Below are positions 1,643 through 15,529 of a stretch of DNA of 26,854 nt, one piece after another. The DNA comes from an uncultured Acidaminococcus sp. (GTDB lineage: Bacteria; Bacillota_C; Negativicutes; Acidaminococcales; Acidaminococcaceae), in NCBI GenBank assembly GCA_900314165.1, contig OMUE01000157.1, positions 1 through 26,854 on the forward strand. Direction: 5' to 3'. Below the pieces are notes generated by a model. It was not told where the DNA came from, did not search any database, and saw only the letters and a program-made list of their open reading frames with translations. The stretch's first letter is position 1. Every line of letters starts with the position of its first letter. The position numbers were made by a program, and so were the translations under genes.

Positions 1643-3175
1643 ATGCGGTGGTGGAAACCTTTAGCTTTTGGCCTGTCCCTGGCCCTTTTGCCAGGCTGGG
1701 CAGCCTCCACAGAAGCAGCTAAGAAATCAAACCTTCAGCAGCTAAAACCTATGCCTGCCTGGACGGAGCTGGCGAAAAAAGGACCAGCCGGCCAGGAACA
1801 AGGAGCACAGGCTTCTGCTATGAACCAGGAAACTTTGTCCGTCTGGTGGGAAACCTTTCATGATCCTCAACTGAACCAGTTAATTGATAAGACCTTGCAG
1901 AACAACCGGAATCTGCAGGCCGCCCAGGCAAGGGTGGAGCAGGCCAGAGCCCAGCTAGGCATCAGCAAAGGGGAAATGCTGCCCTGGCTGAATGCCGGCG
2001 GCGCCTGGGTCAGGGGCCAGATTCCCGACTCTGCAGCAGAACCGCTGACGGAGATGAGCCCTATCCCTAATATGCCTTTGCGCTCCCCGAAACTGAACGA
2101 CCAGGCGGCCGGTCTGGGTATCGACGCTTCCTGGGAAATCGACTTCTTCGGACGATTGAAAGAAGGCAAGCGGGCGGCGGCCCACAATCTGGCAGCCCAG
2201 CAGGGAGCCTTGTACAGCACCTGGGTCACCCTTAGTGCGGAAACAGCCTTAAACTATATTTCTCTGCGAACCCTCCAGCAGGATCTGGCCATTGTCCAGC
2301 GCCATAGCGAGCTGGAAGGGGAAAAGGCGGAGCTGTTGGAGGATAACTATCAGGCAGGCCTGGCTAGTGCCTACCCTGTGGAAGCCATGAAAACCCAGCA
2401 GCAGAGTACCCAGGCAGAGATTCCTGCGTTGCAGCAATCCATCCAGGAAACTCTCACACGGCTTACGATCCTGACGGGCTCGGAGCCGGGACAGCTCAGC
2501 GACCTGCTGGAACCGGCGCCTCTGCCCAAGGTGGATGCTGCGCTGTACAATGCCATCCCGGCGGACAAACTGCGTCAGCGGCCGGATATCTATGCGGCCG
2601 AACAAAAAGTTCTGGCTCAGGCGGCCAAGACGAAGCAGGCCAAAGCAGAATTGAAACCTCGTTTCACCCTGGAAGGGTTCCTGGGACTCATTACCTTTGG
2701 CGGCGCCAATCTGTTTTCCTCCAAGGCCCATAGCTTTGCCATCGCACCTACCATGACCATGCCCCTGTTCCACGGCGGCGTGCTGCGGCAGAACGTGAAA
2801 CTGCAGGATGCCCGGACGAAGCAGTATCAGGCAGAATATGAAAATACGGTGCTGAAAGCAGCCGGAGAAGTCCAGGATGCCATGACCAGCATTGCCCAGG
2901 AAAGAGAACGGAAAGAAAACCTCACAGCCGGTCGGGAAAGTGCCCAACAGGCTTTTGACCTGGCAGAAAACCGGTATCAGGCAGGGCTTAGCGATTACCA
3001 ACCTGTGTTGGACAGCGAACGGACCCTGCTGAACCTGAAGCGGCAGGAGAACCGCAGCCAGGGCCAGGAACTGGCGGATATGATCCATCTGTTCAAGTCT
3101 CTGGGCGGCGGCTGGCAGCCACTGGAAGACGCACAGCTAAGTGAAGTTGCAAACGCAGGGGGGAAGGAAAAATGA
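1643..3175 (+). CDS. TolC-like outer-membrane efflux channel
   Basis: A 510-residue outer-membrane factor (OEP family), the channel through which a tripartite pump exports its substrate across the outer membrane. The first 22 or so residues form a signal peptide ending in GWAAS. There is no lipobox cysteine, unlike NodT-type lipoproteins. Two OEP repeats follow: one containing QARVEQARAQLGISKGEMLP and, past residue 330, one ending in the QEN-rich helices near residue 470. The motif LRQRPDI near residue 310 is typical. The ATG at 1643 has GGAG eight bases upstream; a GTG three codons earlier would overlap that site. The stop overlaps the adaptor start (ATGA). A TolC homologue in a Firmicute-like genome indicates a diderm envelope. 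Confidence 0.93.
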   Translation: MRWWKPLAFGLSLALLPGWAASTEAAKKSNLQQLKPMPAWTELAKKGPAGQEQGAQASAMNQETLSVWWETFHDPQLNQLIDKTLQNNRNLQAAQARVEQARAQLGISKGEMLPWLNAGGAWVRGQIPDSAAEPLTEMSPIPNMPLRSPKLNDQAAGLGIDASWEIDFFGRLKEGKRAAAHNLAAQQGALYSTWVTLSAETALNYISLRTLQQDLAIVQRHSELEGEKAELLEDNYQAGLASAYPVEAMKTQQQSTQAEIPALQQSIQETLTRLTILTGSEPGQLSDLLEPAPLPKVDAALYNAIPADKLRQRPDIYAAEQKVLAQAAKTKQAKAELKPRFTLEGFLGLITFGGANLFSSKAHSFAIAPTMTMPLFHGGVLRQNVKLQDARTKQYQAEYENTVLKAAGEVQDAMTSIAQERERKENLTAGRESAQQAFDLAENRYQAGLSDYQPVLDSERTLLNLKRQENRSQGQELADMIHLFKSLGGGWQPLEDAQLSEVANAGGKEK

Positions 3176-4218
3176 TAAAGGAATTTTGGCAGAAATTGTG
3201 TGCAGATAAAAAGAAGATGGCAGCTTTTGTAGCAGCGGTTGTGGTTGTTGCAGGCTTGGGCGGCTATGGTTATGAAAGCTATAAGACGAAGAAAGCTGCT
3301 GGCTCCCTGACTTTATATGGCAATATGGATGTGCGGGAAGTGGCTTTGGCTTTCCGGCAAAGCGACCGGATTGCAGAAGAGCTGGTGGAAGAAGGGGATA
3401 AGGTCAAAAAGGACCAGGTTCTGGCCAGACTGGAAACCGATGAACTGAAAATCAAACTGGGCAAACTGGAAGCTCAGATTGCGGCCCAGCAGGGTGTGGT
3501 GGATAAGCTCCATAACGGTACCCGTGCAGAAGACATTGCCGAAGCAAAAGCCAAGGCTGATGAAGCAGCTTCCCAGGCAGACCTGGCCAGACAGGACTTA
3601 GCCAGAGTGCAGCGTGCCTTTGGCAGCTCCGGCGGTAAATCCGTCAGCAAGCAGGACTTGGATAACGCCCAGGCTAAGGTAGAAGTCACGGCAGCGAAAG
3701 CGGAAGCGGCCAACCAGGCTTACGACAAGGCCGTCACCGGTCCCCGGGAAGAAGATGTGAGAAGCGGGGAACAGCAGCTGAAAGCCTTGGAAGAAGATAA
3801 GAAACATTTGGAATATCTGCTGAGCCAGTCCGAACTGAAGGCTCCTAACGACGGGGTTATCCGTTCCCGGCTGTTGGAAGTCGGGGATATGGCCTCTCCC
3901 CAAAAACCCGTGTTCAAAATGTCCCTGAATACGAAGAAATGGGCTCGCGTTTATGTAAACGAAAAAGATCTGGGCCGGATTTATGAGGGCATGAAAGCTA
4001 AAATCTATACGGACAGCCATCCTGACAAGCCTGTTGAAGGCCAGATCGGGTACATTTCTTCTACGGCAGAATTTACCCCTAAAACGGTACAGACCACGGA
4101 TCTGCGTACCTCCCTGCTGTATGAGGTCCGGGTGTATGTGACCGACGCAGACAATGTGCTGCGCATGGGTATGCCCGTCACCGTGAAGATTGATACCACG
4201 GAGAAGAACCATGACTGA
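3172..4218 (+). CDS. HlyD-family periplasmic adaptor protein
   Basis: A 348-residue membrane fusion protein that links the inner-membrane ABC transporter to the outer-membrane channel. A positively charged N-terminus is followed by one membrane anchor (about residues 16-33). A split lipoyl-like domain comes next (EELVEEGDKVKKDQVLARL near residue 65 and the returning strand ELKAPNDGVIRSRLLEVGD near residue 222). Between them is an alanine-, glutamate- and lysine-rich coiled-coil hairpin (about 90-215), then a beta-barrel domain. It resembles YbhG of E. coli. The start overlaps the channel stop by four bases, and the end overlaps the ATPase start by eight bases, indicating translational coupling. 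Confidence 0.92.
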   Translation: MIKEFWQKLCADKKKMAAFVAAVVVVAGLGGYGYESYKTKKAAGSLTLYGNMDVREVALAFRQSDRIAEELVEEGDKVKKDQVLARLETDELKIKLGKLEAQIAAQQGVVDKLHNGTRAEDIAEAKAKADEAASQADLARQDLARVQRAFGSSGGKSVSKQDLDNAQAKVEVTAAKAEAANQAYDKAVTGPREEDVRSGEQQLKALEEDKKHLEYLLSQSELKAPNDGVIRSRLLEVGDMASPQKPVFKMSLNTKKWARVYVNEKDLGRIYEGMKAKIYTDSHPDKPVEGQIGYISSTAEFTPKTVQTTDLRTSLLYEVRVYVTDADNVLRMGMPVTVKIDTTEKNHD

Positions 4219-5956
4219 GTGGGTGGTCCAGGCTGAAAAGCTGGACAAACTCTTTGACGATAAGCAGGGAAAGGTACATGCGCTACAGGCCATAGACTTC
4301 TGTGCGGAAAAAGGCAAAATGACGGCCCTCATCGGTCCGGATGGGGCGGGTAAGACTACGACCATGCGGCTTATCTGCGGCCTTATGGATCCTACAGGCG
4401 GCAGCCTGAAGGTTCTGGGCCTGGATTCTGTAAAGGGAGCCGAAGAAATCCAGTCCCGGATCAGCTACATGCCGCAAAAATTCGGCCTGTATGAAGACTT
4501 GACGATTCAGGAAAATATGGACTTGTATGCGGACCTGCATGGGATTCCCCAGGCAACCCGCAAAGCAAGATTCGCAAAACTCTTGGAAATGACCGGGTTG
4601 GCTGCTTTTACAGGGCGGTTGGCTGGGAAATTATCCGGCGGTATGAAGCAGAAGCTGGGCCTAGCCTGCACTTTGGTCCGTTCTCCGGATCTGTTGATTC
4701 TGGATGAACCTACCGTAGGCGTGGACCCTCTCAGCCGGGATGAGCTGTGGGTCATCATCAAGCAGATGGTCCGGGAAGAAAATCTTAGCGTCATCGTGTG
4801 CACAGCCTACATGAATGAAGCGGCCATGTGCGACCAGGTGTACGTACTGAACCTGGGCAAGATGCTGTTCCATGGGACACCTCAGGAACTGAGCAATGTG
4901 GCGGCAGGTAAATGTTTTGAAGTAGATCCTCCGGATACGCTGCCTTACCGGTTCCTTCAGGGAGCCTTGCTGGATGACAAGGAACAGATTATAGACGCCG
5001 TACCGGAAAGCGGAACGGTACGCTATATTGTCAGGACTCCGGGTGAGCCTGTGCCAGCTCTGACCCGCTGGAATCTGACGCCCCATGAAGTGGCACCCCG
5101 CCTGGAAGATGGCTTTATGATCCTGCTTCACCAGGCGGCTGGCCAGGAAAATGCCAATATTGCCCTGGCTCCTTTGGAAACTGTGCCCCCTAAAGCTTCT
5201 GATAATGAAGTGAGTATCGAGGTGAAAGACCTGGTGAAGAAGTTCGGCGACTTTACTGCTGTGTCCCATACGTCCTTCCAGGTCCATAAAGGGGAAGTGT
5301 TCGGCCTGCTGGGGCCTAATGGTGCCGGCAAGACCACCACGTTCCGCATGCTCTGCGGCCTGATTCCGGCAACGGGCGGCAAGCTCAGCGTGGCCGGGGA
5401 AAACCTGCGGACGGCTCGGACAGAAGCACGTGCGAAGATCGGATACGTGTCTCAGAAATTCGCTCTATACACGAAACTCAGCGTCCAGGAAAACCTGGAA
5501 TTCTACGGGGGCATGTACGGCCTGCCTAAGAAAAAACTGCAGGAACGGATTAAGACCGTTTTAAAAGAGTTTCAACTGAACGGTACCGAAAACCATAATG
5601 CCGGAGATCTGCCCGGAGGCTATAAACAGCGCTTGTCCATGGCCTGTGCCTTACTGCAGGAACCGGAAATCCTGTTTTTGGACGAACCTACCAGCGGTAT
5701 CGATCCACTGGCCCGGCGTATGTTCTGGCGGGAGATTACGGACCTGTCCTGCAAAGGCACGACGATCATCATTACGACTCACTTTATGGAGGAGTCGGAA
5801 TACTGTGATCGGATCATGATCCAGGACCATGGGAAGATGCTGATTATCGGCTCCACGGACGAAATCCGGGAAAAGCTGCATAAACCAGGAGCCAATATGG
5901 ATAGTATGTTTATCGATATTGTGAACCAGGCCCGTGCTAAAGAGGAGGCGTCCTGA
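4211..5956 (+). CDS. Double ABC transporter ATPase (YbhF-like)
   Basis: A 581-residue fusion of two ABC ATPase domains that should energise the ABC-2 permeases downstream. Domain 1 has Walker A GPDGAGKTT (42-50), signature LSGGMKQK (141-148) and Walker B LLILDEP (161-167). Domain 2 has Walker A GPNGAGKTT (368-376), signature LPGGYKQR (467-474), Walker B ILFLDEP (487-493) and a switch histidine in TTHFMEE (H524). Domain 1 has alanine where the switch histidine belongs (TAYMNEA), and the domain 2 signature has proline for serine; both changes fall in the same composite ATP site. A linker of about 100 residues separates the domains. The ATG at 4211 is preceded by GGAG at seven bases. A TTG seven codons upstream lies further inside the adaptor gene and lacks such a site. 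Confidence 0.93.
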   Translation: MTEWVVQAEKLDKLFDDKQGKVHALQAIDFCAEKGKMTALIGPDGAGKTTTMRLICGLMDPTGGSLKVLGLDSVKGAEEIQSRISYMPQKFGLYEDLTIQENMDLYADLHGIPQATRKARFAKLLEMTGLAAFTGRLAGKLSGGMKQKLGLACTLVRSPDLLILDEPTVGVDPLSRDELWVIIKQMVREENLSVIVCTAYMNEAAMCDQVYVLNLGKMLFHGTPQELSNVAAGKCFEVDPPDTLPYRFLQGALLDDKEQIIDAVPESGTVRYIVRTPGEPVPALTRWNLTPHEVAPRLEDGFMILLHQAAGQENANIALAPLETVPPKASDNEVSIEVKDLVKKFGDFTAVSHTSFQVHKGEVFGLLGPNGAGKTTTFRMLCGLIPATGGKLSVAGENLRTARTEARAKIGYVSQKFALYTKLSVQENLEFYGGMYGLPKKKLQERIKTVLKEFQLNGTENHNAGDLPGGYKQRLSMACALLQEPEILFLDEPTSGIDPLARRMFWREITDLSCKGTTIIITTHFMEESEYCDRIMIQDHGKMLIIGSTDEIREKLHKPGANMDSMFIDIVNQARAKEEAS

Positions 5957-7065
5957 TGAAAGATTTTATCCGGCGCCTGACGGCGCTGACCCATAAGGAA
6001 TTTTTGGAATTGATCCGCGACCGCAGCAGCCTGATTATGGGGATTTTGATGCCCATCATGCTGGTGTTTATCAATGGTTACGGGGTGTCTTTGGATGTGT
6101 ACCATTCCCGGGTGACTGTGGTCATGGAGGATATGTCCCCTACGGCTCACGACGTGGTGAGCTTCCTGGATGGTTCTGAGTATTTTGATCCGGTGTACGT
6201 GACCAGTATGAAGGAGGCCATGGACCGGATGGACAAGCGGCAGACGGAAGCTATCCTGCGGGTACCGCCCAATTTTTCCTCCAATCTCTACCAGGGAAAT
6301 AGCCATTTGCAGCTGCTGCTGTCAGGTATTGATACGACAACCGCTATGACAGTCCAAGGGTATGTAGAGGCCGGCCTTGCTGCCTGGGAAGCAAGACAAT
6401 TGAATACACGGGGCATAGGTACTGTGACCGTGGACAGCAGAATCTGGTACAACGATGCTAACTCCAGTACCTGGTACTTTATGCCAGGGCTCATCATGCT
6501 GACTATAACTATTATTGGGGTCTTACTGACCGCTATCGTCATGGCCCGAGAGTACGAAAGAGGTACATTTGAGTCGTTATTTGTGACACCAGTGCGGCCT
6601 ATGGAATTGATCCTTTCCAAAATCATTCCCTATTTTTGTATCGCCTGCGTCGGGGTGGTTATCTGCTTCTTTCTTTCAAGATATCTCTTCAATGTGCCTG
6701 TCCATGGCTCCATCATGGCCATCGTTATCCTGTCCGTCATCTATCTATTTGCGGCTTTGGGTGCCGGACTCATTATTTCCGTTTACACGAAGAGTCAGTT
6801 TCTGGCCTGCCAGACCGGCCTGACTATCACCATGATGCCCTGCCTAATGCTGTCCGGTTATATCTTTGATCTGCGGACTACGCCGGAAGTTGTGCAATGG
6901 GTGGGGCAGCTTCTACCCTTCAGTCATTATCTGACCTGCCTGAAGTCCCTGTTCTTGGCCGGAAATATCTGGAATATTACAGTACCCAACGGGGCTTTGT
7001 TAAGCCTTTACGCTTTAGGCTTTGTGGGCATTGCTTTTTCTATTACGAAGAAGAAGGTGGGCTGA
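5956..7065 (+). CDS. ABC-2 type permease, first pair, subunit A
   Basis: A 369-residue inner-membrane permease of the YbhS/YhhJ type. One membrane helix (about 27-46) is followed by an extracytoplasmic domain of about 125 residues, then five or so helices from residue 173 on. The ABC-2 motif AREYERGTFESLFVTPV lies between helices 2 and 3. It should form a heterodimer with the next gene product and work with the ATPase upstream. GAGGAGG precedes the start, and the ATG shares one base with the ATPase stop codon. The protein aligns without gaps to the product of 8332-9441 over its whole length, with more than half the residues identical by eye. Confidence 0.92.
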   Translation: MKDFIRRLTALTHKEFLELIRDRSSLIMGILMPIMLVFINGYGVSLDVYHSRVTVVMEDMSPTAHDVVSFLDGSEYFDPVYVTSMKEAMDRMDKRQTEAILRVPPNFSSNLYQGNSHLQLLLSGIDTTTAMTVQGYVEAGLAAWEARQLNTRGIGTVTVDSRIWYNDANSSTWYFMPGLIMLTITIIGVLLTAIVMAREYERGTFESLFVTPVRPMELILSKIIPYFCIACVGVVICFFLSRYLFNVPVHGSIMAIVILSVIYLFAALGAGLIISVYTKSQFLACQTGLTITMMPCLMLSGYIFDLRTTPEVVQWVGQLLPFSHYLTCLKSLFLAGNIWNITVPNGALLSLYALGFVGIAFSITKKKVG

Positions 7066-8189
7066 TGGATCTGAAAAAATGGAAAGAAATCTTTGTGCGA
7101 CAGGTCGTGCACATGTGCAAGAAGGAAATGCTGAGCACCTTCAAAGATCCCCGCTTTAAAAAAGTGCTGCTCATTCCGCCTATCCTCATGGGCTTCCTGT
7201 TCGGCTATGCGGCCAATTTCAACGTAGAGAACATCACGTACGCCGTGCTGGATAAGAGCCATTCTAAGGCCTCCGTGTCCTTGGTGGCCCATCTGGACGG
7301 GACGGATTTTTACCATAGAGTAGCTACCCTGCAAAATGAAAGCGAGATTGCGGATCCTGTCAACCGGGAAAAAGCCATGCTGGTTATGGTGATTCCGAAG
7401 GACTTTGTGGGTCGGTTGGAGAGGGGCGAAAATTCTCCTGTCCAACTTATTACAGACGGGCGGTATACGATGACGTCCAGCCTGGCTACGGCTTATACCA
7501 GCCGGGTTATCAGCAGGTGGATGCTGGAACAGTCGGGACAGGAAGCTCCCTTATCTCTGGAGGTACGGACCTGGTTTAACCCCAACCAGCTGACCCGCTG
7601 GTTCTTCAGTCCCGGTATCTTGGGCATCATGTGCTTTATCCAGGTAGTATTGCTGGCCGGCCTGTCCGTAGCCCGGGAACGGGAAGAGGGGACCTTCGAG
7701 CAGCTGCTGGTGACGCCGTCTCCCCCTGTGGTCATCCTTATCGGCAAAGCCTTTGCTCCTGTAGTGGTAGGCTTCATCGAAGGAACCATCCTGCTGCTCA
7801 TCGGCACGCTGTGGTTCCAGGTACCCTTTACGGGCAGCTTGCTGGCCCTGTATTTCACCATGCTGTTGTTCTTTATCGCTTCCGCCGGCGTAGGCCTGGC
7901 CATTTCCGCCAATTGCCAGAACATGCAGCAGGTACAGGTGTATACGTCCCTGTATTTGGTGCCTAACGGGGTACTGTCGGGCATGTTTACGCCTATCCGG
8001 AATATGCCGGAAGCGCTACAGCTTATTACCTATATCAATCCACTGCGGTTTGCCCTGGACGCCATGCGGCGGATCTATTTTCAGGGAGCTACGTTCTGGT
8101 CCCAGGGTTACAATTTCCTGCCCCTGCTGATCATTGCCTTGCTGACCCTGTCCTTTGCCGGCTATCAGTTTCGGCATAATTTGAATTAA
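7065..8189 (+). CDS. ABC-2 type permease, first pair, subunit B
   Basis: A 374-residue partner permease of the YbhR type. An N-terminal cytoplasmic helix is followed by a membrane segment near residues 40-58, an extracytoplasmic domain, and a C-terminal block of about five helices. The motif REREEGTFEQLLVTPSPP identifies the family. The frame stays open far upstream, into the previous gene, but the ATG at 7065 is preferred because AAGAAGGTGG precedes it and it shares a base with the preceding stop codon. It is a close paralogue of the product of 9442-10557. It ends the first efflux operon and is followed at once by a strong hairpin. Confidence 0.92.
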   Translation: MDLKKWKEIFVRQVVHMCKKEMLSTFKDPRFKKVLLIPPILMGFLFGYAANFNVENITYAVLDKSHSKASVSLVAHLDGTDFYHRVATLQNESEIADPVNREKAMLVMVIPKDFVGRLERGENSPVQLITDGRYTMTSSLATAYTSRVISRWMLEQSGQEAPLSLEVRTWFNPNQLTRWFFSPGILGIMCFIQVVLLAGLSVAREREEGTFEQLLVTPSPPVVILIGKAFAPVVVGFIEGTILLLIGTLWFQVPFTGSLLALYFTMLLFFIASAGVGLAISANCQNMQQVQVYTSLYLVPNGVLSGMFTPIRNMPEALQLITYINPLRFALDAMRRIYFQGATFWSQGYNFLPLLIIALLTLSFAGYQFRHNLN

Positions 8190-8194
8190 AGATT

Positions 8195-8250
8195 GACTGT
8201 AAAAAAGAAGGAGTTGTGAAATCACAGCTCCTTCTTTTTTACAGTCTTTT
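8195..8250 (+). terminator. Long-stem terminator after the first efflux operon
   Basis: The arm GACTGTAAAAAAGAAGGAG (8195-8213) pairs with 8228-8246, and inside it TTGTGA pairs with TCACAG (one G-T pair) around an AA loop. The whole is a 25-bp stem with a 2-base loop, unusually long for an intrinsic terminator. It starts five bases after the stop codon and is followed by TTTT, so it should separate the two permease operons. Confidence 0.8.
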
Positions 8251-8253
8251 CAT

Positions 8254-8282
8254 TTGTGGATATTCAATAGCTGATGTATAAT
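8254..8282 (+). promoter_or_regulatory. Promoter of the second permease pair
   Basis: TTGTGG (8254-8259), a 17-base spacer and a perfect TATAAT (8277-8282). The -35 box is weaker than that of the first efflux promoter. The shared operator starts nine bases after the -10 box. Confidence 0.65.
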
Positions 8283-8291
8283 AAGAACAAA

Positions 8292-8315
8292 CGATTAATT
8301 AATAGAACGATTAAT
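8292..8315. promoter_or_regulatory. Second copy of the efflux operator
   Basis: CGATTAATTAAT at 8292-8303 is followed by AGAA and then CGATTAAT at 8308-8315, so the site contains a direct repeat of CGATTAAT. It is 21/24 identical to the complement of 1589-1612 and has the same spacing to the -10 box. It lies just upstream of the AGGAGG ribosome binding site of the first permease gene. Confidence 0.6.
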
Positions 8316-8331
8316 AAAAGGAGGAAATCCT

Positions 8332-9441
8332 ATGAAAGATTCTTTGCGCCGGATCAAGGCGCTTACTATAAAAGAATTCCGAGAGGTTATGCGGGACAGC
8401 TCCAGCCTGGCCCTGGGCATCGTGCTGCCCATCGTGCTGATCCTGATCATCGGCTACGGTATCAGCCTGGATGTCAAGCATGCGCCTATTGGCGTTGTGC
8501 TGGAGGATGCGTCTCCGGAAGCCCAGCGGATGGTAGATTTTGTGGACGGGTCTGAATATTTCCAACCCACCTATTTTACAAATATGAATATGGCAGATAG
8601 AGCCATGAAGCAGCGGAAGGTAGATGCAATCCTGCGGGTACCTCCGGATTTCAACCGGCAGCTGCACCAGGGTGATGCCCGGCTCCAGCTGCTGCTGTAC
8701 GGAACGGATACCACTACGGCTATGAGTATCCAGAGCTACGTGGAAACGGCTGTGGCCCAGCGTTCGGCGGATCTGATGGCCAGCCAGGGTGTGGGGGCCG
8801 TGGATTTGGAAAGCCGGCTGTGGTTCAATGATGCCAACGAAAGTACCTGGTACTTTATCCCCGGCCTGATCCTCATGATTGTGACCCTGGTAGGGGTACT
8901 GTTGACGGCCAGCGTCATGGCCCGGGAATATGAGCGGGGTACCTTTGAATCCCTGTTCGTGACGCCGGTGAAAAAAGGGGAAATCATCGTGGCCAAGATC
9001 ATCCCCTACTTCTGCATTGCCATATTCGGCATCTTGATCTGCATGGTCTTATCCCGGACCCTGTTTCAGGTGCCTTTGGTAGGGTCTCTGGCTCTCGTAG
9101 CCCTTATGTCCGTGATCTATCTGTTGACGGCTCTGGGCATGGGCATGGTCATTTCTGTAATCACCAAGGCCCAGTTCATGGCCATCCAGGTGGCTCTGCT
9201 GGTCAGTTTCCTGCCCAGCATTATGCTGTCGGGCTTCCTGTTCGACCTGCGCAGCATTCCGGTGTGGATCCAATGGATTGCAGAATTCCTGCCCTTCAAG
9301 CATTATCTGGTGGTGCTGAAGACGCTGTTCCTGGCTGGCAATATCTGGCCTGTGCTGTTGCGCCGGGGCGCAGTCATGTTGGCCTTTATGGCGCTGTTTA
9401 CAGGACTGGCCCGCAGGATTATCCGAAAGAAGGTGGAATAG
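8332..9441 (+). CDS. ABC-2 type permease, second pair, subunit A
   Basis: A 369-residue inner-membrane permease with the same length and topology as the product of 5956-7065: one N-terminal helix, a large extracytoplasmic domain, then a block of about five helices with AREYERGTFESLFVTPV between helices 2 and 3. The start has AAAGGAGG at a good distance. It is the first gene of a second unit with its own promoter and the shared operator. No ATPase, adaptor or channel gene belongs to this unit, so it probably borrows those of the first operon; this is inference. Paralogue pairs of this kind may let one pump handle different substrates. Confidence 0.92.
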   Translation: MKDSLRRIKALTIKEFREVMRDSSSLALGIVLPIVLILIIGYGISLDVKHAPIGVVLEDASPEAQRMVDFVDGSEYFQPTYFTNMNMADRAMKQRKVDAILRVPPDFNRQLHQGDARLQLLLYGTDTTTAMSIQSYVETAVAQRSADLMASQGVGAVDLESRLWFNDANESTWYFIPGLILMIVTLVGVLLTASVMAREYERGTFESLFVTPVKKGEIIVAKIIPYFCIAIFGILICMVLSRTLFQVPLVGSLALVALMSVIYLLTALGMGMVISVITKAQFMAIQVALLVSFLPSIMLSGFLFDLRSIPVWIQWIAEFLPFKHYLVVLKTLFLAGNIWPVLLRRGAVMLAFMALFTGLARRIIRKKVE

Positions 9442-10557
9442 ATGACGGGTTGGCAGCTTTTTTGGCAACAGGTGAAATTTATGTGCCGGAAGGAACTGAT
9501 GGCCGTCTGGAAAGATAAGACCTTCCGGTCCATCCTGGTCATCCCCACCTTGGTCTTAGGCTTGATCTTTGGCTATACAGCAACCTTTAACGTGGAAAAT
9601 GTGACCTATGCTGTGTTGGACCAAAGCCATTCCCAAGAGGCTACGTCCCTTTTAGCAAAACTGGATGGTACCCATTTCTTCCACCGGGTGACCCAATTGG
9701 ACAATACGTCTCAGATTCAGGACCCCATCAACCGGGAAGAGGTCATGATGGTGCTGGTAATTCCTCAGGACTTTTCCCAACGGCTGGAACGGGGAGAGAA
9801 GGCACCGCTGCAGGTCATTACCGATGGCCGGAATACTATGACGGCGAATCTGGCCTCCGCCTATACAGGACGAGTGGTCCAGCAATGGATGGCTGAGCGG
9901 TCCGGACGGCGACCACCCATGAGCGTGGAAGCCCGGACCTGGTTCAATCCGAATCAGCTGACCCTGTGGTATTTTGCCCCGGGCATCCTGGGCCTTATGA
10001 GTTTTGCCCAGGTCATATTGCTGGCAGGCATGTCCGTAGCCCGGGAACGGGAAGAGGGAACCTTTGAGCAGCTGCTGGTGACGCCGGCATCTCCGGCCGT
10101 CCTGTTAATCGGCAAAGCCGTGCCGCCGGTAGTGGTGGGCCTGATGCAGGGCACCATCCTGCTGCTCATCGACCTGTTCTGGTTCCGGGTGCCCTTTGAA
10201 GGTTCCTATCTGACCTTGTACATCGTCCTGTTTATCTATTTCCTCAGCTCCACGGGCATCGGACTCAGCATTTCTTCTGTGTGCTCCTCCATGCAGCAGG
10301 TCCAGGTCTACACCTATGTGTACCTGATTCCCAATGCCCTGCTGTCCGGTGTGGCTACTCCCGTGCGGAATATGCCCCAGGTGCTGCAGATCCTGACCTA
10401 TGCAGATCCCCTGCGCTTTGCCCTGGACGCTATCCGCCGGATCTATTTCGAAGGGGCCGGCCTTAGCACCATTGCCTTCGACCTCCTGCCCATGACTATC
10501 ACCGCGGCCATTACGCTGGTGCTGGCAGGGAAGCTGTTTAGGAAGAATCTGGGGTAG
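9442..10557 (+). CDS. ABC-2 type permease, second pair, subunit B
   Basis: A 371-residue partner permease, paralogous to the product of 7065-8189, with the family motif REREEGTFEQLLVTPASP and the same N-terminal FNVENVTYAVLDQSHS stretch. The ATG follows the previous stop codon directly; AAGGTGG serves as ribosome binding site. The conserved pairing of an A-type and a B-type subunit in both operons points to duplication of the pair as a unit rather than of single genes. The second efflux unit ends here, and the next 425 bases are gene-free. Confidence 0.92.
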   Translation: MTGWQLFWQQVKFMCRKELMAVWKDKTFRSILVIPTLVLGLIFGYTATFNVENVTYAVLDQSHSQEATSLLAKLDGTHFFHRVTQLDNTSQIQDPINREEVMMVLVIPQDFSQRLERGEKAPLQVITDGRNTMTANLASAYTGRVVQQWMAERSGRRPPMSVEARTWFNPNQLTLWYFAPGILGLMSFAQVILLAGMSVAREREEGTFEQLLVTPASPAVLLIGKAVPPVVVGLMQGTILLLIDLFWFRVPFEGSYLTLYIVLFIYFLSSTGIGLSISSVCSSMQQVQVYTYVYLIPNALLSGVATPVRNMPQVLQILTYADPLRFALDAIRRIYFEGAGLSTIAFDLLPMTITAAITLVLAGKLFRKNLG

Positions 10558-10886: not shown

Positions 10887-10915
10887 TTGACACCGTTATA
10901 AAATATCTCTAAACT
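10887..10915 (+). promoter_or_regulatory. Promoter of the AAA+ cassette
   Basis: A perfect TTGACA (10887-10892), a 17-base spacer and TAAACT (10910-10915). A second possible -10 box, TATAAT (10948-10953), lacks a well-spaced -35 box. The site is 17 bases outside the 304-bp element and 68 bases before the first start codon. Confidence 0.6.
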
Positions 10916-10982: not shown

Positions 10983-12707
10983 ATGGCACAGCAGGTCATC
11001 AGTACGGCGAATCTACGTTATATAGAGAACTGCCTAGGCAACATCAGTGCCAGGGTGGATACCATCGATGGCAGAGTGGAGACGGTCAATCAGGAAGTCA
11101 ACAGTGTGAGAAACGAGTTGGCCGCTCTGCGGGAGACCCTGGAACAGTTTGTGAACGAGCAGGGTCTGGCTAACAGAAGATCCGAAGCCGAGACAAGGCT
11201 TGTGAAAATCCGCCAGGAAATCGACAAGAAATTCGGCCATTATGATGAAATCCGCCGCAGGGTCATGGGCATCCTGGAGGCTACAGATCTGGGCATGGTG
11301 CACCAACAGAAACTCCTGGATACCTCGGAAAGCGATATGCTGTCTGTGCCGAAATATTGGCTGGTTCCCTGCCTGACGGCGCTGTCGGCTTGGATCTGCA
11401 ATAAGAAGGAGTTGGCTGAAAAGGCCCTGAAGGAAGCTATCCAGCGGGACGATGAAAAAACCTGCCTATTCTTTGCCCTGGTGTGCCGGCGGGCTGACCG
11501 GAAGGCAGCCGGCATGAAATGGCTCAACCGGTATCTGGCAGCCCAGAATGAGGAACAACTGGATAGGAATGCCATCATCGTATTGTCGGCCTATGCCAAT
11601 GGACTGTGGGGCAGCGATACGGAGGGCAAGGTCCTGAAGACCATAGATACCTGGCTGGACAACCTGAAATCCCGGCCGGGCTTCGAGGAAAAACAGCGGA
11701 AACAATGGAAACAGGTCTTTGCGTTGCAGCAGGCCAATGTGACACCGCAGCTGGATTATACGTACCTGAAAAAATACAGCCCAACCTGGCCTGCCTTGGA
11801 AGCCAGCATGAAAGGAGCCTTCCTGCATGAAAAAATGGACCAGTATTTCCACAAGGTATTTGATGAAGAGTATCCTACCAGGAAACTGGTGAACCAACTG
11901 GACGAAACCCTGACCACCCTCGTTAAGAATTTTGATGAAGAAGAGATTCCTTTACGGAAACAGGAACTGCTGGAGCAGGAGGTCCTGGCCTGCCATGGGG
12001 ACGAACAGATGGCTCAGCAGCACATGCCTGTGCGGTCCACGGCTCTGGAAACTCACCGGGACTTCCTGCAGATGCTGACGGATGCGGCTATGAATCCTCA
12101 GGATGCCCATGCGGATACGGCGACCCGGAAATTGGCCATCGCCCTTTCCCGGGACTGGATTTTGGAAGGATACCAGGATCTGATGGGTGAAAACCGGAGC
12201 AGGATTCCTGTAAATATCCAGCTGAAAATGGGAGATTTCCAGACGAAGACTATGGATGGGACGGATGAAGAAGCCCTGTTTTCGCAATATGACCAATTCC
12301 TGGATACCTGGAAAGCTAATGTGATGGCCGGCAAAGAGCTCACACCCCGGGACAATACTTTCAAAACCATCGGGCTTGTTGTCATGGCCGTAGGTGTCCT
12401 AGCCTTTCCTCTTGGTTCTGTCGGAATCGGCATCCTGCTGCTGATTATCGGTTACATTTTATATAAAAGCTATAAAAACAAAAAGGCTGCTTATGACGCA
12501 GCCGTGGCTCAATGCAACGAATTGGAAAAGCAGCGGGAGCCGGCTAAGGCCATTATCAGGGCCTTCTGCGCCGAAGTGGTGGATTACCGGCAGCAGTATC
12601 AGGAAAAAGACGGGGAAAGCCGCAAAGTCCTGGACTTCCTGCAGAGCATGGAGCCGCGGGAATTTGTCCAGAACAGAGCGGATGCACCCAGACGGGTCAT
12701 CATATAA
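10983..12707 (+). CDS. Coiled-coil protein with a C-terminal membrane hairpin, unknown function
   Basis: A 574-residue protein I cannot assign to a named family. Residues 15-85 form a likely coiled coil (heptad-like, rich in V, N, E, R). Residues 120-250 are helical with TPR-like spacing. Residues 461-496 are a hydrophobic pair of helices around LAFPLGSVGIG, followed by YKSYKNKK, so the protein probably sits in the membrane by a hairpin with most of its mass in the cytoplasm. No signal peptide or catalytic motif is visible. The start has GCGAGG upstream. It is the first gene of the cassette, and its TAA stop overlaps the ribosome binding site of the next gene. A scaffold or substrate-presenting role for the AAA+ ATPase is a guess. 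Confidence 0.85.
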   Translation: MAQQVISTANLRYIENCLGNISARVDTIDGRVETVNQEVNSVRNELAALRETLEQFVNEQGLANRRSEAETRLVKIRQEIDKKFGHYDEIRRRVMGILEATDLGMVHQQKLLDTSESDMLSVPKYWLVPCLTALSAWICNKKELAEKALKEAIQRDDEKTCLFFALVCRRADRKAAGMKWLNRYLAAQNEEQLDRNAIIVLSAYANGLWGSDTEGKVLKTIDTWLDNLKSRPGFEEKQRKQWKQVFALQQANVTPQLDYTYLKKYSPTWPALEASMKGAFLHEKMDQYFHKVFDEEYPTRKLVNQLDETLTTLVKNFDEEEIPLRKQELLEQEVLACHGDEQMAQQHMPVRSTALETHRDFLQMLTDAAMNPQDAHADTATRKLAIALSRDWILEGYQDLMGENRSRIPVNIQLKMGDFQTKTMDGTDEEALFSQYDQFLDTWKANVMAGKELTPRDNTFKTIGLVVMAVGVLAFPLGSVGIGILLLIIGYILYKSYKNKKAAYDAAVAQCNELEKQREPAKAIIRAFCAEVVDYRQQYQEKDGESRKVLDFLQSMEPREFVQNRADAPRRVII

Positions 12708-12718
12708 GGAGGCGCACT

Positions 12719-12892
12719 ATGGCAGAGGACGCATTCAGCAAAATGGGGACGGACGAAAATAAACAGTCGGATACCACAGCGGCTCAGAGCGGAAAGAAAG
12801 ACTTGCCGGAGGACCCTCTGGCTACGGGTCTGCCAGATTGGGACCTGCTGCCACCTCAGGTGGTCATCCGGAGAAAGGCCAGGAAATTCTGA
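12719..12892 (+). CDS. Small 57-residue protein with a PDWDLLPP motif
   Basis: A short gene with an excellent ribosome binding site, AAGGAGG (12706-12712), six bases before the ATG. Its TGA stop overlaps the ATG of the next gene. The product has an acidic, polar N-terminus (about 1-30), the motif PDWDLLPP (39-46) and a basic C-terminal tail ending RRKARKF. It looks like an unstructured adaptor or docking peptide rather than an enzyme. Position and coupling make it a genuine member of the cassette. I do not recognise a named family. Confidence 0.8.
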   Translation: MAEDAFSKMGTDENKQSDTTAAQSGKKDLPEDPLATGLPDWDLLPPQVVIRRKARKF

Positions 12893-13332
12893 TGAAGGCA
12901 CCCCGGAATTATAGTGAATGGGTGAGCGTACTGGAAGCACTGAAGGCGCATACTTCTGACGAAGAAGTCTGGGAAGCCATGCAGGACGGTACTTTGGTCT
13001 GGCAGGAAGGGGTGGCTCAGCGCTTTACCCAGCGTTTGGTGAATGCGGTGAATAGCCGGCTCAATGACGCTACGGATACGTTTCAAAAACAGCTGAAGCA
13101 CGGGAATACGCCCCAAAGCCTCATCCAGGCCCTGCTGCAGCTGCGGAGGGAATTCGTGTTCCTGGAAAAGATTATGGATCTGCCAGCCATTCCGGAAGAC
13201 CAGCGGCAGAAGTACGTACAGCTGGTCCGGGATCAGGCGGACAAAGTCCAGAAAAGCCTGGAGGACTCAGCCCGGGCGGATCGTACCGGCCGGCTGGCCA
13301 GCATCGTGCGGAATCACCCGGTGAATCGCTAG
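12892..13332 (+). CDS. Small helical protein of the AAA+ cassette, unknown function
   Basis: A 146-residue protein predicted by eye to be almost all helical and soluble, without a signal peptide, membrane segment or catalytic motif. Conserved-looking stretches are the tryptophan-containing N-terminus (NYSEWVSVLEALK and EVWEAMQDGTLVWQEGV) and the C-terminal DRTGRLASIVRNHPVN. I have the impression that similar proteins occur beside AAA+ ATPases in other Firmicutes, but could not check. The start at 12892 shares an A with the stop of the 57-residue gene (TGATG), so it is translationally coupled; in-frame starts further upstream lie inside that gene and lack a binding site. The AAA+ gene starts 18 bases after its stop. 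Confidence 0.85.
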   Translation: MKAPRNYSEWVSVLEALKAHTSDEEVWEAMQDGTLVWQEGVAQRFTQRLVNAVNSRLNDATDTFQKQLKHGNTPQSLIQALLQLRREFVFLEKIMDLPAIPEDQRQKYVQLVRDQADKVQKSLEDSARADRTGRLASIVRNHPVNR

Positions 13333-13350
13333 AAGGAGAGATAGGACAAC

Positions 13351-14925
13351 ATGACGGATTTGAAGAAGAGTATGGAACTGCTGCATCGCTACATGATAGC
13401 CCGGATCCCCTTTGTGACCCTGCATACCATAGAGCGGAGCAGAGTCCTGGAAAAATTGAAGGCGATAGGGGAAGATTTAGCCTTGCCCATCTATGTGCAC
13501 AGCCTGTCCAAGGGTGTGTACGACCTGGAGACAAATAAGGTCCTGAACGAAGATAAGTCCGTGTATGGAGCCGTGGATTTTTTCAGCGAACAGCTGAAGC
13601 GGCGGCAAAACCTGACCCTGGTCCTTACGGAGACACCGGACCTGACCGGGGACAACAGCGACACCCGGCAGCTGCTGGATCTGGTGAATCTGGCCAACGA
13701 AAATGGCGGCTCTCTGGTGGTCTTTACCAACAATCCCATCTGGAACCGGCTGCAGCGGACGGGCATGATTATCAAGATCGACCTGCCGGATGAAGAAGAG
13801 ATGTACCCCATCATTAAAGAATATATAGATGACTACCGGTCCGAAATTCCTATCGAGTGGGATGAACAGGATATCAAGGAAGCTGCGTCCATCCTGGCCG
13901 GCGTTACGACCATAGAAGCGGAAAACGTCATGGCGGCGCTCATTGCCAAAAAGAGCATTACCAAAGCAGATCTGGATGAGGTCCGCTATGCAAAAGACAG
14001 GCTGTTTTCGGATATTTCCGGTCTGGAGAAGATTGACGTGGACGATAGCGTGAAAGACGTAGGGGGCCTGGGCGGCCTGCGGCAGTGGCTGGACGAGAAG
14101 AAGCAGCTGCTGAAGCCGGAAAAACGGGAGGAAATGCGCCGCAAAGGGCTGCAGCCACCCAGAGGCATTTTGCTGGTAGGGGTACCGGGCTGCGGCAAAT
14201 CCCTGTCCGCCAAGTCCATTTCTGCTAACTGGAAGCTGCCCCTGTACAGGCTGGACTTTGCTACTGTCCAGGGCAGTTACGTAGGACAGTCAGAACAGCA
14301 GCTGAAGGATGCCCTGACTACGGCGGAAAACGTGTCGCCCTGCATCCTCTGGATTGATGAAATAGAAAAAGGCTTGTCCGGAGCGGGCAAGGCCAACGAT
14401 GGCGGCGTATCCACCCGCATGGTGGGCCAGTTCCTGTTCTGGCTGCAGGAATGTAAAAAGCAGGTGTTCGTGGTGGCTACGGCTAACGACGTGTCCCTGC
14501 TGCCTTCGGAGCTCCTGCGCCGGGGCCGTTTTGATGAATTGTTCTTCGTGGATCTGCCGACCGCAGAAGAACGGCGGGAAATCCTGTCCCTGTACATGAA
14601 GAAATATCTGCAGGTCCATTTTGAGGGGCCTGTGGCGGATGAATTGGTCCAGCTCAGCGAAGGATTTACAGGTGCAGATCTGGAATCCACCGTTCGGGAT
14701 CTGGCTTATCGGCAGATTGCGAACCCGGATTTTGCCCTCAGTCCGGAGAACCTGCGGGCAGCGTTCCAAAATGTAGTGCCCTTGTCCCAGACCAGTCCGG
14801 AGCGGATAGAAGCCATCCGGGCCTGGGGTCGGGAACGGGCGGTGCCGGCTTCCGGCAAACCCATCGGAGGCGGGGAACCTCTTGTGAAGAAGGATGGCTT
14901 GCGGACTCGCAAAGTCCTGGTTTGA
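13351..14925 (+). CDS. Ycf46-like AAA+ ATPase
   Basis: A 524-residue AAA+ ATPase of the Ycf46-like group, whose role is unknown; relatives remodel or unfold proteins. Residues 1-215 form the N-terminal domain typical of the group (an opening like MELLHRYMIARIPFVTLHT, then a degenerate nucleotide-binding fold). The AAA+ core has Walker A GVPGCGKS (277-284), Walker B CILWIDEIEK (331-340), sensor 1 ATAND (376-380), arginine fingers RRGRFD (390-395) and sensor 2 GADLES (441-446), so it should be active. A pore-loop candidate is YVGQS (310-314). There is no membrane segment or protease domain. AAGGAGAG precedes the ATG. The clustered small proteins are probably adaptors or substrates; this is inference. 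Confidence 0.92.
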   Translation: MTDLKKSMELLHRYMIARIPFVTLHTIERSRVLEKLKAIGEDLALPIYVHSLSKGVYDLETNKVLNEDKSVYGAVDFFSEQLKRRQNLTLVLTETPDLTGDNSDTRQLLDLVNLANENGGSLVVFTNNPIWNRLQRTGMIIKIDLPDEEEMYPIIKEYIDDYRSEIPIEWDEQDIKEAASILAGVTTIEAENVMAALIAKKSITKADLDEVRYAKDRLFSDISGLEKIDVDDSVKDVGGLGGLRQWLDEKKQLLKPEKREEMRRKGLQPPRGILLVGVPGCGKSLSAKSISANWKLPLYRLDFATVQGSYVGQSEQQLKDALTTAENVSPCILWIDEIEKGLSGAGKANDGGVSTRMVGQFLFWLQECKKQVFVVATANDVSLLPSELLRRGRFDELFFVDLPTAEERREILSLYMKKYLQVHFEGPVADELVQLSEGFTGADLESTVRDLAYRQIANPDFALSPENLRAAFQNVVPLSQTSPERIEAIRAWGRERAVPASGKPIGGGEPLVKKDGLRTRKVLV

Positions 14926-14941
14926 GGAAAGGTGACGAACT

Positions 14942-15418
14942 ATGCCGAGACCTATACTGAAAACACCAAAACAACAAGAAACGACCAGACTGTCCGCTGT
15001 CCATACCACGAAAACTGCGGCTAATTTGTCCGAATTGGAAAAAGACCGGCTGCTGCGGCGCAACCGGTCTAAAAAATATATGGAATTGGTACAGAGGCTG
15101 GATGCCGGAGGTCACGTAACGAACCGGGCCCAGGTGCAGCAGCTGCTTCAGGATCTTCAGGGAGAATTCACGGAACTGGAGTTGCCGGGCTATATGATTG
15201 GCATTGTAGCGAAATGCTATCTGGGAGAAGACTATCAGGTCCATACCCTGGATCTTATGGGCAGCATCATCCGGCATTTCCGGAGAGGGGAAGCTTTGCC
15301 GGAGGGCCTGGAGAAAGCCCGCTCCCTGGCCCTGTTTGGCGGCTACGCTTTTATAGAAGTGTACACGGACTGCTGCTGTGCCATCAGCGAAGATGGTACT
15401 GTCAGCGTAATCAAATAG
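14942..15418 (+). CDS. Last protein of the AAA+ cassette, unknown function
   Basis: A 158-residue protein of no family I recognise. The first 30 residues are polar and probably disordered, followed by a basic stretch (DRLLRRNRSKK, about 38-48). A helical domain comes next (50-135) and a C-terminal strand-rich end with three adjacent cysteines (TDCCCAISEDG). The start lies 16 bases after the AAA+ stop with GGAAAGGTGA upstream. The gene ends the cassette and is followed by short GC-rich hairpins and a clear terminator (15481-15529). Shared strand and spacing suggest that it works with the ATPase. Confidence 0.82.
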   Translation: MPRPILKTPKQQETTRLSAVHTTKTAANLSELEKDRLLRRNRSKKYMELVQRLDAGGHVTNRAQVQQLLQDLQGEFTELELPGYMIGIVAKCYLGEDYQVHTLDLMGSIIRHFRRGEALPEGLEKARSLALFGGYAFIEVYTDCCCAISEDGTVSVIK

Positions 15419-15480: not shown

Positions 15481-15529
15481 AAAAAAGACCTGTTGTCAGA
15501 AGGCTAACCTCTGACAACAGGGCTTTTTT
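15481..15529 (+). terminator. Terminator of the AAA+ cassette
   Basis: CCTGTTGTCAGA (15489-15500) pairs perfectly with 15510-15521, flanked by AAAAAAG and CTTTTTT that extend the stem after one mismatch. It is followed by the T-run and works in principle in both directions. Read on the minus strand, 15521-15503 matches the core of the AGATGATAGA repeat family at about 16 of 19 positions. Confidence 0.85.

Follow-up and report, generated by a model that had tools for sequence, protein, structure and literature searches.

Five adjacent genes on the forward strand of a 26,854-nucleotide stretch of DNA (here, the window) from an uncultured Acidaminococcus sp. raise the question of whether they form a single system and, if so, what an AAA+ ATPase does in the company of four proteins that resemble no described family. 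The genes, here g1 to g5 (positions 10983-15418), follow each other with gaps of 11, -1, 18, and 16 bases, and a preliminary description of this DNA had placed them as a tightly spaced set between one promoter and one terminator. All coordinates and the tight packing were upheld, as was the terminator 3' of g5: a palindrome of 14 pairs at 15489-15521, with a T-run on the reverse strand and followed on the forward strand by GCTTTTTTC, is, judged by its sequence, a good predicted terminator. The promoter fared less well; a promoter-like match (TTGACA-17-TAAACT, forward strand, 10887-10915) does lie 5' of g1, but it is weak because such matches are no commoner in the window (three) than in its shuffles (mean 3.4). 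Genes for ABC-type transporters lie 5' of the module, and positions 3172-10557 hold a large efflux-type cluster with an HlyD-like gene, a tandem ABC ATPase, and four ABC-2-type permeases. On the 3' side lie, on the opposite strand, one gene resembling a metallo-beta-lactamase and one resembling a peptidase, and beyond them trp genes. All these neighbors were named by eye, and by the same inspection no mobile or effector gene adjoins the module in the window; an Rfam search of the window found nothing. The third-position GC of the module (0.59-0.69) is that of the other measured genes in the window (0.57-0.71), so the window bears no sign of a recent arrival.

The ATPase, g4 (13351-14925, 524 aa), is the only one of the five products with a family match (Pfam AAA, PF00004, E 2.8e-28), and about 230 aa form its N-terminal part. 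Its Walker A (GVPGCGKS, 14179-14202; G277, P279, G280, C281, G282, K283, and S284 invariant) and Walker B (WIDEIEKG, 14350-14373, invariant) motifs are intact, and K283, D336, E337, N379, R390, and R393 are invariant among 54 aligned sequences, the window included; N379 and R390/R393 we take to be the functional Asn and Arg residues of AAA+ proteins. With all of these residues in place the enzyme should be active, as had been proposed, and among solved structures its motor domain best matches a VCP-like ATPase (5vc7, E 2e-59, g4 residues 235-477). The label Ycf46-like, under which it was introduced in the preliminary description, is a provisional one.

The product of g1 (10983-12707, 574 aa) had been called a protein with a coiled coil and a membrane hairpin, and both features are seen: the protein starts with a coiled coil and carries a hydrophobic hairpin at about residues 462-498 (12366-12475), which agrees with the membrane association proposed for the set as a whole. 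A structure model of the orthologue in locus L031 adds a TPR-like helical repeat and has a helical pair at the place that matches the hairpin. The remaining products are a 57-aa peptide with a conserved LPxWDLxPP...RR pattern (g2, 12719-12892), a protein of 146 aa counted from its ATG (g3, 12892-13332, sharing one base with the g2 stop), and a protein of 158 aa with invariant C92, H101, H112, and E139 (g5, 14942-15418). For g1, g2, g3, and g5 no Pfam or NCBIfam model gave a score above its curated cut-off, and matches in PADLOC and PHROGs were weak or absent (in PADLOC 2.0, none for g2, g3, or g5, and for g1 a best E of 0.0027). Against PDB sequences g1 gave coiled-coil or other weak matches (best E 1e-4) and g5 a single chance-level match (E 2.4) and no clear fold match; a scan of 54 g5 sequences revealed no additional family. 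The spacing of Cys and His in g5 had brought the CheD deamidases to mind, a candidate for which Pfam and fold searches gave no support. These are nevertheless large families, with at least 435 significant relatives for g1 and at least 441 for g5 (about 8,000 candidates scored for each). Few of the best 120 relatives listed per protein have names, and these read "hypothetical" or "uncharacterized protein," the sole other name among the listed relatives of g1 being "DUF456 domain-containing protein."

The proposal that the five genes form one system was examined at 81 loci, namely the window plus 80 others, the top-ranked among at least 578 related loci from one scan with the ATPase, in which the partner genes were found by iterated profile searches. 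Beside the ATPase, g1 is present at 76 of the 81 loci, g2 at 71, g3 at 79, and g5 at 66, and several of the missing genes reflect contig ends, as L017, L021, L048, and L080 stop inside or beside the module. The small genes are thus present beside close relatives of the ATPase, which gives the one-system proposal strong support. The set spans at least five phyla (Bacillota, Pseudomonadota, Bacteroidota, Actinomycetota, and Fusobacteriota), and the recurrence of all five families across phyla rules out chance open reading frames. That the conserved five-gene set is a real system is nearly certain.

Gene order and the ATPase tree (54 rows) give some indication of how the set has spread. The order g1-g2-g3-g4-g5 is that of one Bacillota-centered clade, with Clostridia, Negativicutes, Streptococcus, Enterococcus, and others, and outside it the order is usually g5-g1-g2-g3-g4; in the tree the loci with g5 last form one side of a branch, and a Fusobacterium record outside the tree has g5 last too. 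Bacillota appear in at least three places, and in one of these Paenibacillus, Planomicrobium, Heyndrickxia, and Shimazuella group with Pseudomonadota (support 96/96), which points to horizontal transfer. The g5 gene is absent from a nine-row clade (Bacilli, Mycoplasmatota, and one record labelled Clostridium) and from the long-branched L079. Some operons have several copies of g1 (three in L079, two in L028), and a 20-kb stretch of Selenomonas felix holds a second, divergent g1 as a lone anchor protein with the end RRVQV and none of g2 to g5 (L112:9025-10743).

A feature that ties the otherwise dissimilar products together is a short Arg-x-aliphatic-aliphatic motif that keeps appearing at the termini of g1, g3, g4, and g5, which is to our reading a new observation. 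In the window, g1 ends in APRRVII (12684-12704), g4 ends in TRKVLV (14905-14922), and g5 starts with MPRPIL (14942-14959), the site of the motif in the g5 family; g3 ends in IVRNHPVNR, the R-x-aliphatic tail of g3 being seen in clades other than that of the window. For instance, in Flavobacterium (L044) the ends are RSII for g1, RKIIF for g3, and RSIII for g4. Counted as R-(x)-[VILM]-[VILMF] within the last 12 or the first 14 aa, the motif is found at the C-terminus of g4 in 68 of 81, g3 in 38 of 79, and g1 in 33 of 76 cases, and at the N-terminus of g5 in 35 of 66 and g1 in 20 of 76 (19 if the first residue is disregarded). Control open reading frames from the flanks have it in 42/513 cases at the C-terminus and 48/513 at the N-terminus, and none of 1,000 same-residue shuffles reached any of the five counts, either in the full or in the non-redundant set. 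The tested form occurs in only 1 of 71 g2 peptides. At least two proteins bear the motif in 40 of 54 non-redundant loci.

There is moreover a tie between the tail of g4 and the presence of g5. That tail carries the motif at 64 of 66 loci with g5 vs. none of 11 without (four cut contigs excluded; non-redundant, 39/40 vs. 0/10), and the absence of g5 from L067 is taken from its relatives, since that contig is cut upstream. The tie is clear but amounts to few events, as it corresponds to two changes on the ATPase tree. AlphaFold models of g5 with g1, and of the g4 tail fused to g5, left the motif ends undocked at low confidence, which is weak counter-evidence to docking because the models come without an inter-residue error map. 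They show no interface for the small proteins, which the preliminary description had taken for candidate adaptors. Assembly by means of the motif, which we infer from these patterns, is the most specific new claim that we make.

Our preferred reading, to which we give a probability of roughly 0.4, is that the products form a membrane-anchored AAA+ machine, assembled through the motif, that acts as a sensor or switch in biological conflict. The anchor would be g1, by virtue of its coiled coil, TPR-like repeat, and membrane hairpin; g4, the ATPase, would be the motor, with g2, g3, and g5 as its dedicated partners in what may be a physical complex. The motif, borne on flexible ends of g1, g3, g4, and g5, would dock into one type of pocket and so join the parts, and the TPR-like part of g1 is the candidate motif reader. 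The unit would move horizontally as accessory DNA, respond as an ATP-driven sensor or switch to attack by phages or rivals, and pass its signal to lineage-specific effectors encoded alongside, such as the CHAT proteases and caspases of actinobacteria. Of the functions considered, a conflict role seems to us the likeliest, though we hold it tentatively, and membrane-protein quality control comes close behind. By analogy with RavA-ViaA at the inner membrane, g4 would in that case extract or remodel membrane or envelope proteins, with g1 as anchor and g2, g3, and g5 presenting substrates, in a quality-control or stress machine that has no part in conflict. This is a serious alternative, although one that we consider less probable, and the membrane hairpin of g1 and the Cdc48/p97-like motor domain of g4 suit it well, as does one Clostridia contig in which a Clp-like AAA domain and an FtsH-type M41 protease, in one chain of 1132 aa, are encoded directly 3' of g5 (L002:6758-10156).

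The distribution of the module is patchy. The g1 gene was found in 9 of 151 genomes in the family of a Selenomonas, in 5 of 197 of the genus Streptococcus, and in 4 of 249 of the genus Flavobacterium, with the center genome included in each count and some of the copies split or interrupted by stops. Carriage by about 2-6% of the genomes in three groups, together with carriage by a satellite phage, would be unusual for a core stress machine, and this speaks for a conflict role over quality control. The satellite phage is Streptococcus Javan368, the only one of 50,697 records in a phage collection with the module; g1 to g5 lie inside its called borders, at the end of the element. In four of the five Streptococcus genomes the module adjoins an rpsD-like gene (by eye) and decayed integrase pieces, and since such a decayed piece lies beside g1 in Javan368 too, the border of that element may be over-called. 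One further copy, found in a scan with one peptide pattern, is on an IMG/VR viral contig; two serine recombinases lie to one side of it, from a distance of 2.2 kb onward, and a DUF2201 metallopeptidase/vWA-like gene lies to the other, at about 6 kb. Plasmid copies, like phage copies, are rare, which counts against our preferred reading: they number 4 of 72,556 records, among them a Komagataeibacter plasmid and two records of one species, and one of the four, a 2.1-Mb record, is more likely a chromosome. The satellite phage, the viral contig with its recombinases, and the plasmids would also suit a fitness, addiction, or regulatory module of integrative elements, which would help the element rather than defend the host against phage. 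We give this explanation little credence, as a search of the fetched flanks with two probe proteins only turned up few that hold recombinase- or integrase-like open reading frames.

The neighbors that bear most directly on a conflict role are those of the actinobacterial modules. Of 10 actinobacterial genomes, 6 have a gene for a CHAT protein scoring over the family cut-off no more than 15 kb from the module, where about 0.2 would be expected by chance: three Streptomyces, a Pseudonocardia (two CHAT genes), an Umezawaea, and a Propionibacteriaceae MAG. The 80 fetched loci include 14 from actinobacteria, and these ten are drawn from them (L057, L070, L071, and L080 were left out); in L070 a relative of the CHAT protein adjoins the module, and one of the ten, G617, has an uncounted below-cut-off CHAT match with stops near its module. 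With Streptomyces counted once, the linkage holds in 4 of 8 (p about 2e-5, by a simple model of placement for which copy counts were combined manually), odds that are optimistic because the idea of CHAT was drawn from the same loci. None of the 39 other genomes has CHAT near its module, and 7 of these have it elsewhere. A caspase gene adjoins the module in 3 of the 10 actinobacterial genomes, all of them Streptomyces, and another lies near the Paractinoplanes module (L071). Such CHAT and caspase neighbors are seen, for example, in L150:12742-19165, L147:10981-15159, and L149:10226-14008. In Streptomyces an acidic protein of 170-190 aa is encoded directly 3' of g4 (L069:9600-10118, L070:9600-10139, and L072:9563-10132).

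Other neighbors are confined to fewer loci. A zinc-ribbon membrane protein family is encoded 5' of the module in L002, in L020, where one gene intervenes, and in five related actinobacteria (L054 and L057-L060), the L058 member having no zinc ribbon in the open reading frame as called; the linker carries a clear terminal-type motif in L002 (RKVLL), L020 (RRILV), and L054 (RAVIL), and a less clear one or none in the others. RAMP and Cas10-like genes, of type III CRISPR-like character, lie some 11-12 kb from a Lachnospiraceae module (L140:10411-15657), the Cas10 match being just under its cut-off. In Mogibacterium, a putative HNH-type toxin (by eye; Pfam gives no family) and a SUKH protein (SMI1_KNR4, E 2.3e-9) are encoded between g4 and g5, within an array of genes, all on one strand and over 40 kb long, that includes the module (G600, L138:431 to L139:19901). 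This array also holds two ADP-ribosylglycohydrolase-like genes (by eye), genes for a 2941-aa protein, a P-loop ATPase, and a HerA/DUF87 ATPase, and genes for a zinc-ribbon membrane protein, a vWA-like protein (by eye), and Tubulin_2 proteins. An apparatus for handling or exporting toxins in bacterial competition, which would load or move effectors encoded in or beside the operon, could account for the toxin/SUKH pair and for the HerA-, Tubulin_2-, and zinc-ribbon-type genes of the array. It is improbable as a general explanation, as the pair is seen in one locus and no relatives of it were found in the fetched loci, and g1 to g5 show no recognizable export signal or part of a translocon. HerA-type genes occur no more than 1 kb from the module at L006, L020, and L043.

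The defence role that the preliminary description had raised as one possibility thus has circumstantial backing, from mobile elements, patchiness, and the actinobacterial CHAT and caspase genes. The broader flanks tell against it, in that known defence families are not enriched there: among matches with E up to 1e-20, we counted 28 PADLOC families in 108 flanking proteins vs. 84 in 108 control proteins. The samples are small and the figures count families rather than proteins. The flanking sample (108 of 154 candidates, from 11 of 15 flanking regions) was picked by hand to drop near-duplicates, and the control sample is 108 random proteins of 140, from 11 of 16 regions that were random stretches of the same genomes. 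Flanking families are moreover little shared across loci, with the largest cluster reaching 6 loci. Both results are consistent with quality control. If a conflict role is nonetheless retained, the module could be pictured as a so far undescribed immune chassis, in which subunits tagged with R-x-[VI]-[LI] gather at the membrane along with some of the zinc-ribbon proteins (clearly those of L002, L020, and L054) and are plugged into lineage-specific effectors such as CHAT, caspase, toxin, and perhaps type III CRISPR-like proteins; in this full form we regard the picture as doubtful.

A five-subunit machine common to five phyla appears to have no function on record, and the family libraries that we searched lack four of its families. 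The recurring terminal tag, through its link with g5, suggests an assembly rule that can be tested directly. Given the mobile settings and the CHAT and caspase neighbors, a role in immunity or cell death can be tested as well, in ordinary laboratory strains. Our literature search, which covered few subscription journals and no bioRxiv, found no paper on a bacterial Ycf46 operon, no description of the gene set, and no experiments on any of the five members.

Among known systems, FtsH joins an AAA domain and an M41 peptidase in one chain; g4 scores 102 bits for TIGR01241, where the cut-off is 600, and it has no M41 match. Its motor domain is closest, among solved structures, to Cdc48/p97/VAT; g4 differs from that family in its whole-protein score (TIGR01243, 115.2 bits vs. 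a cut-off of 802.65), in the roughly 230 N-terminal residues outside the best match, and in having four partner families of its own. The anti-phage system IetAS (IteAS) is similar in that g4 is related to IetA, although by the ATPase domain only (PADLOC, E 3.4e-32, residues 256-477), the whole protein scoring 83.8 bits for NF042959 where the NCBIfam cut-off is 510. The partner in the IetAS operon is the subtilisin-like IetS, whereas g1, g2, g3, and g5 match no peptidase family in Pfam up to an E of 1. RavA-ViaA and NorQ-NorD are pairs of a MoxR ATPase and a vWA protein; the best family of g4 is AAA (PF00004) rather than a MoxR family, and g1, g2, g3, and g5 are without a vWA match in Pfam and NCBIfam. 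The likeness to such pairs lies in the overall plan. Kaur et al. (2020; PMC7159879) describe MoxR/GTPase and GTPase/tubulin conflict systems, and with these and the MoxR-vWA pairs the module shares an NTP-driven motor, dedicated partners, a membrane link, and variable effectors. Linked effectors of such conflict systems include caspase and CHAT proteases; CHAT genes are near 6 of 10 actinobacterial modules and 0 of 39 others. The Mogibacterium array recalls the GTPase/tubulin systems.
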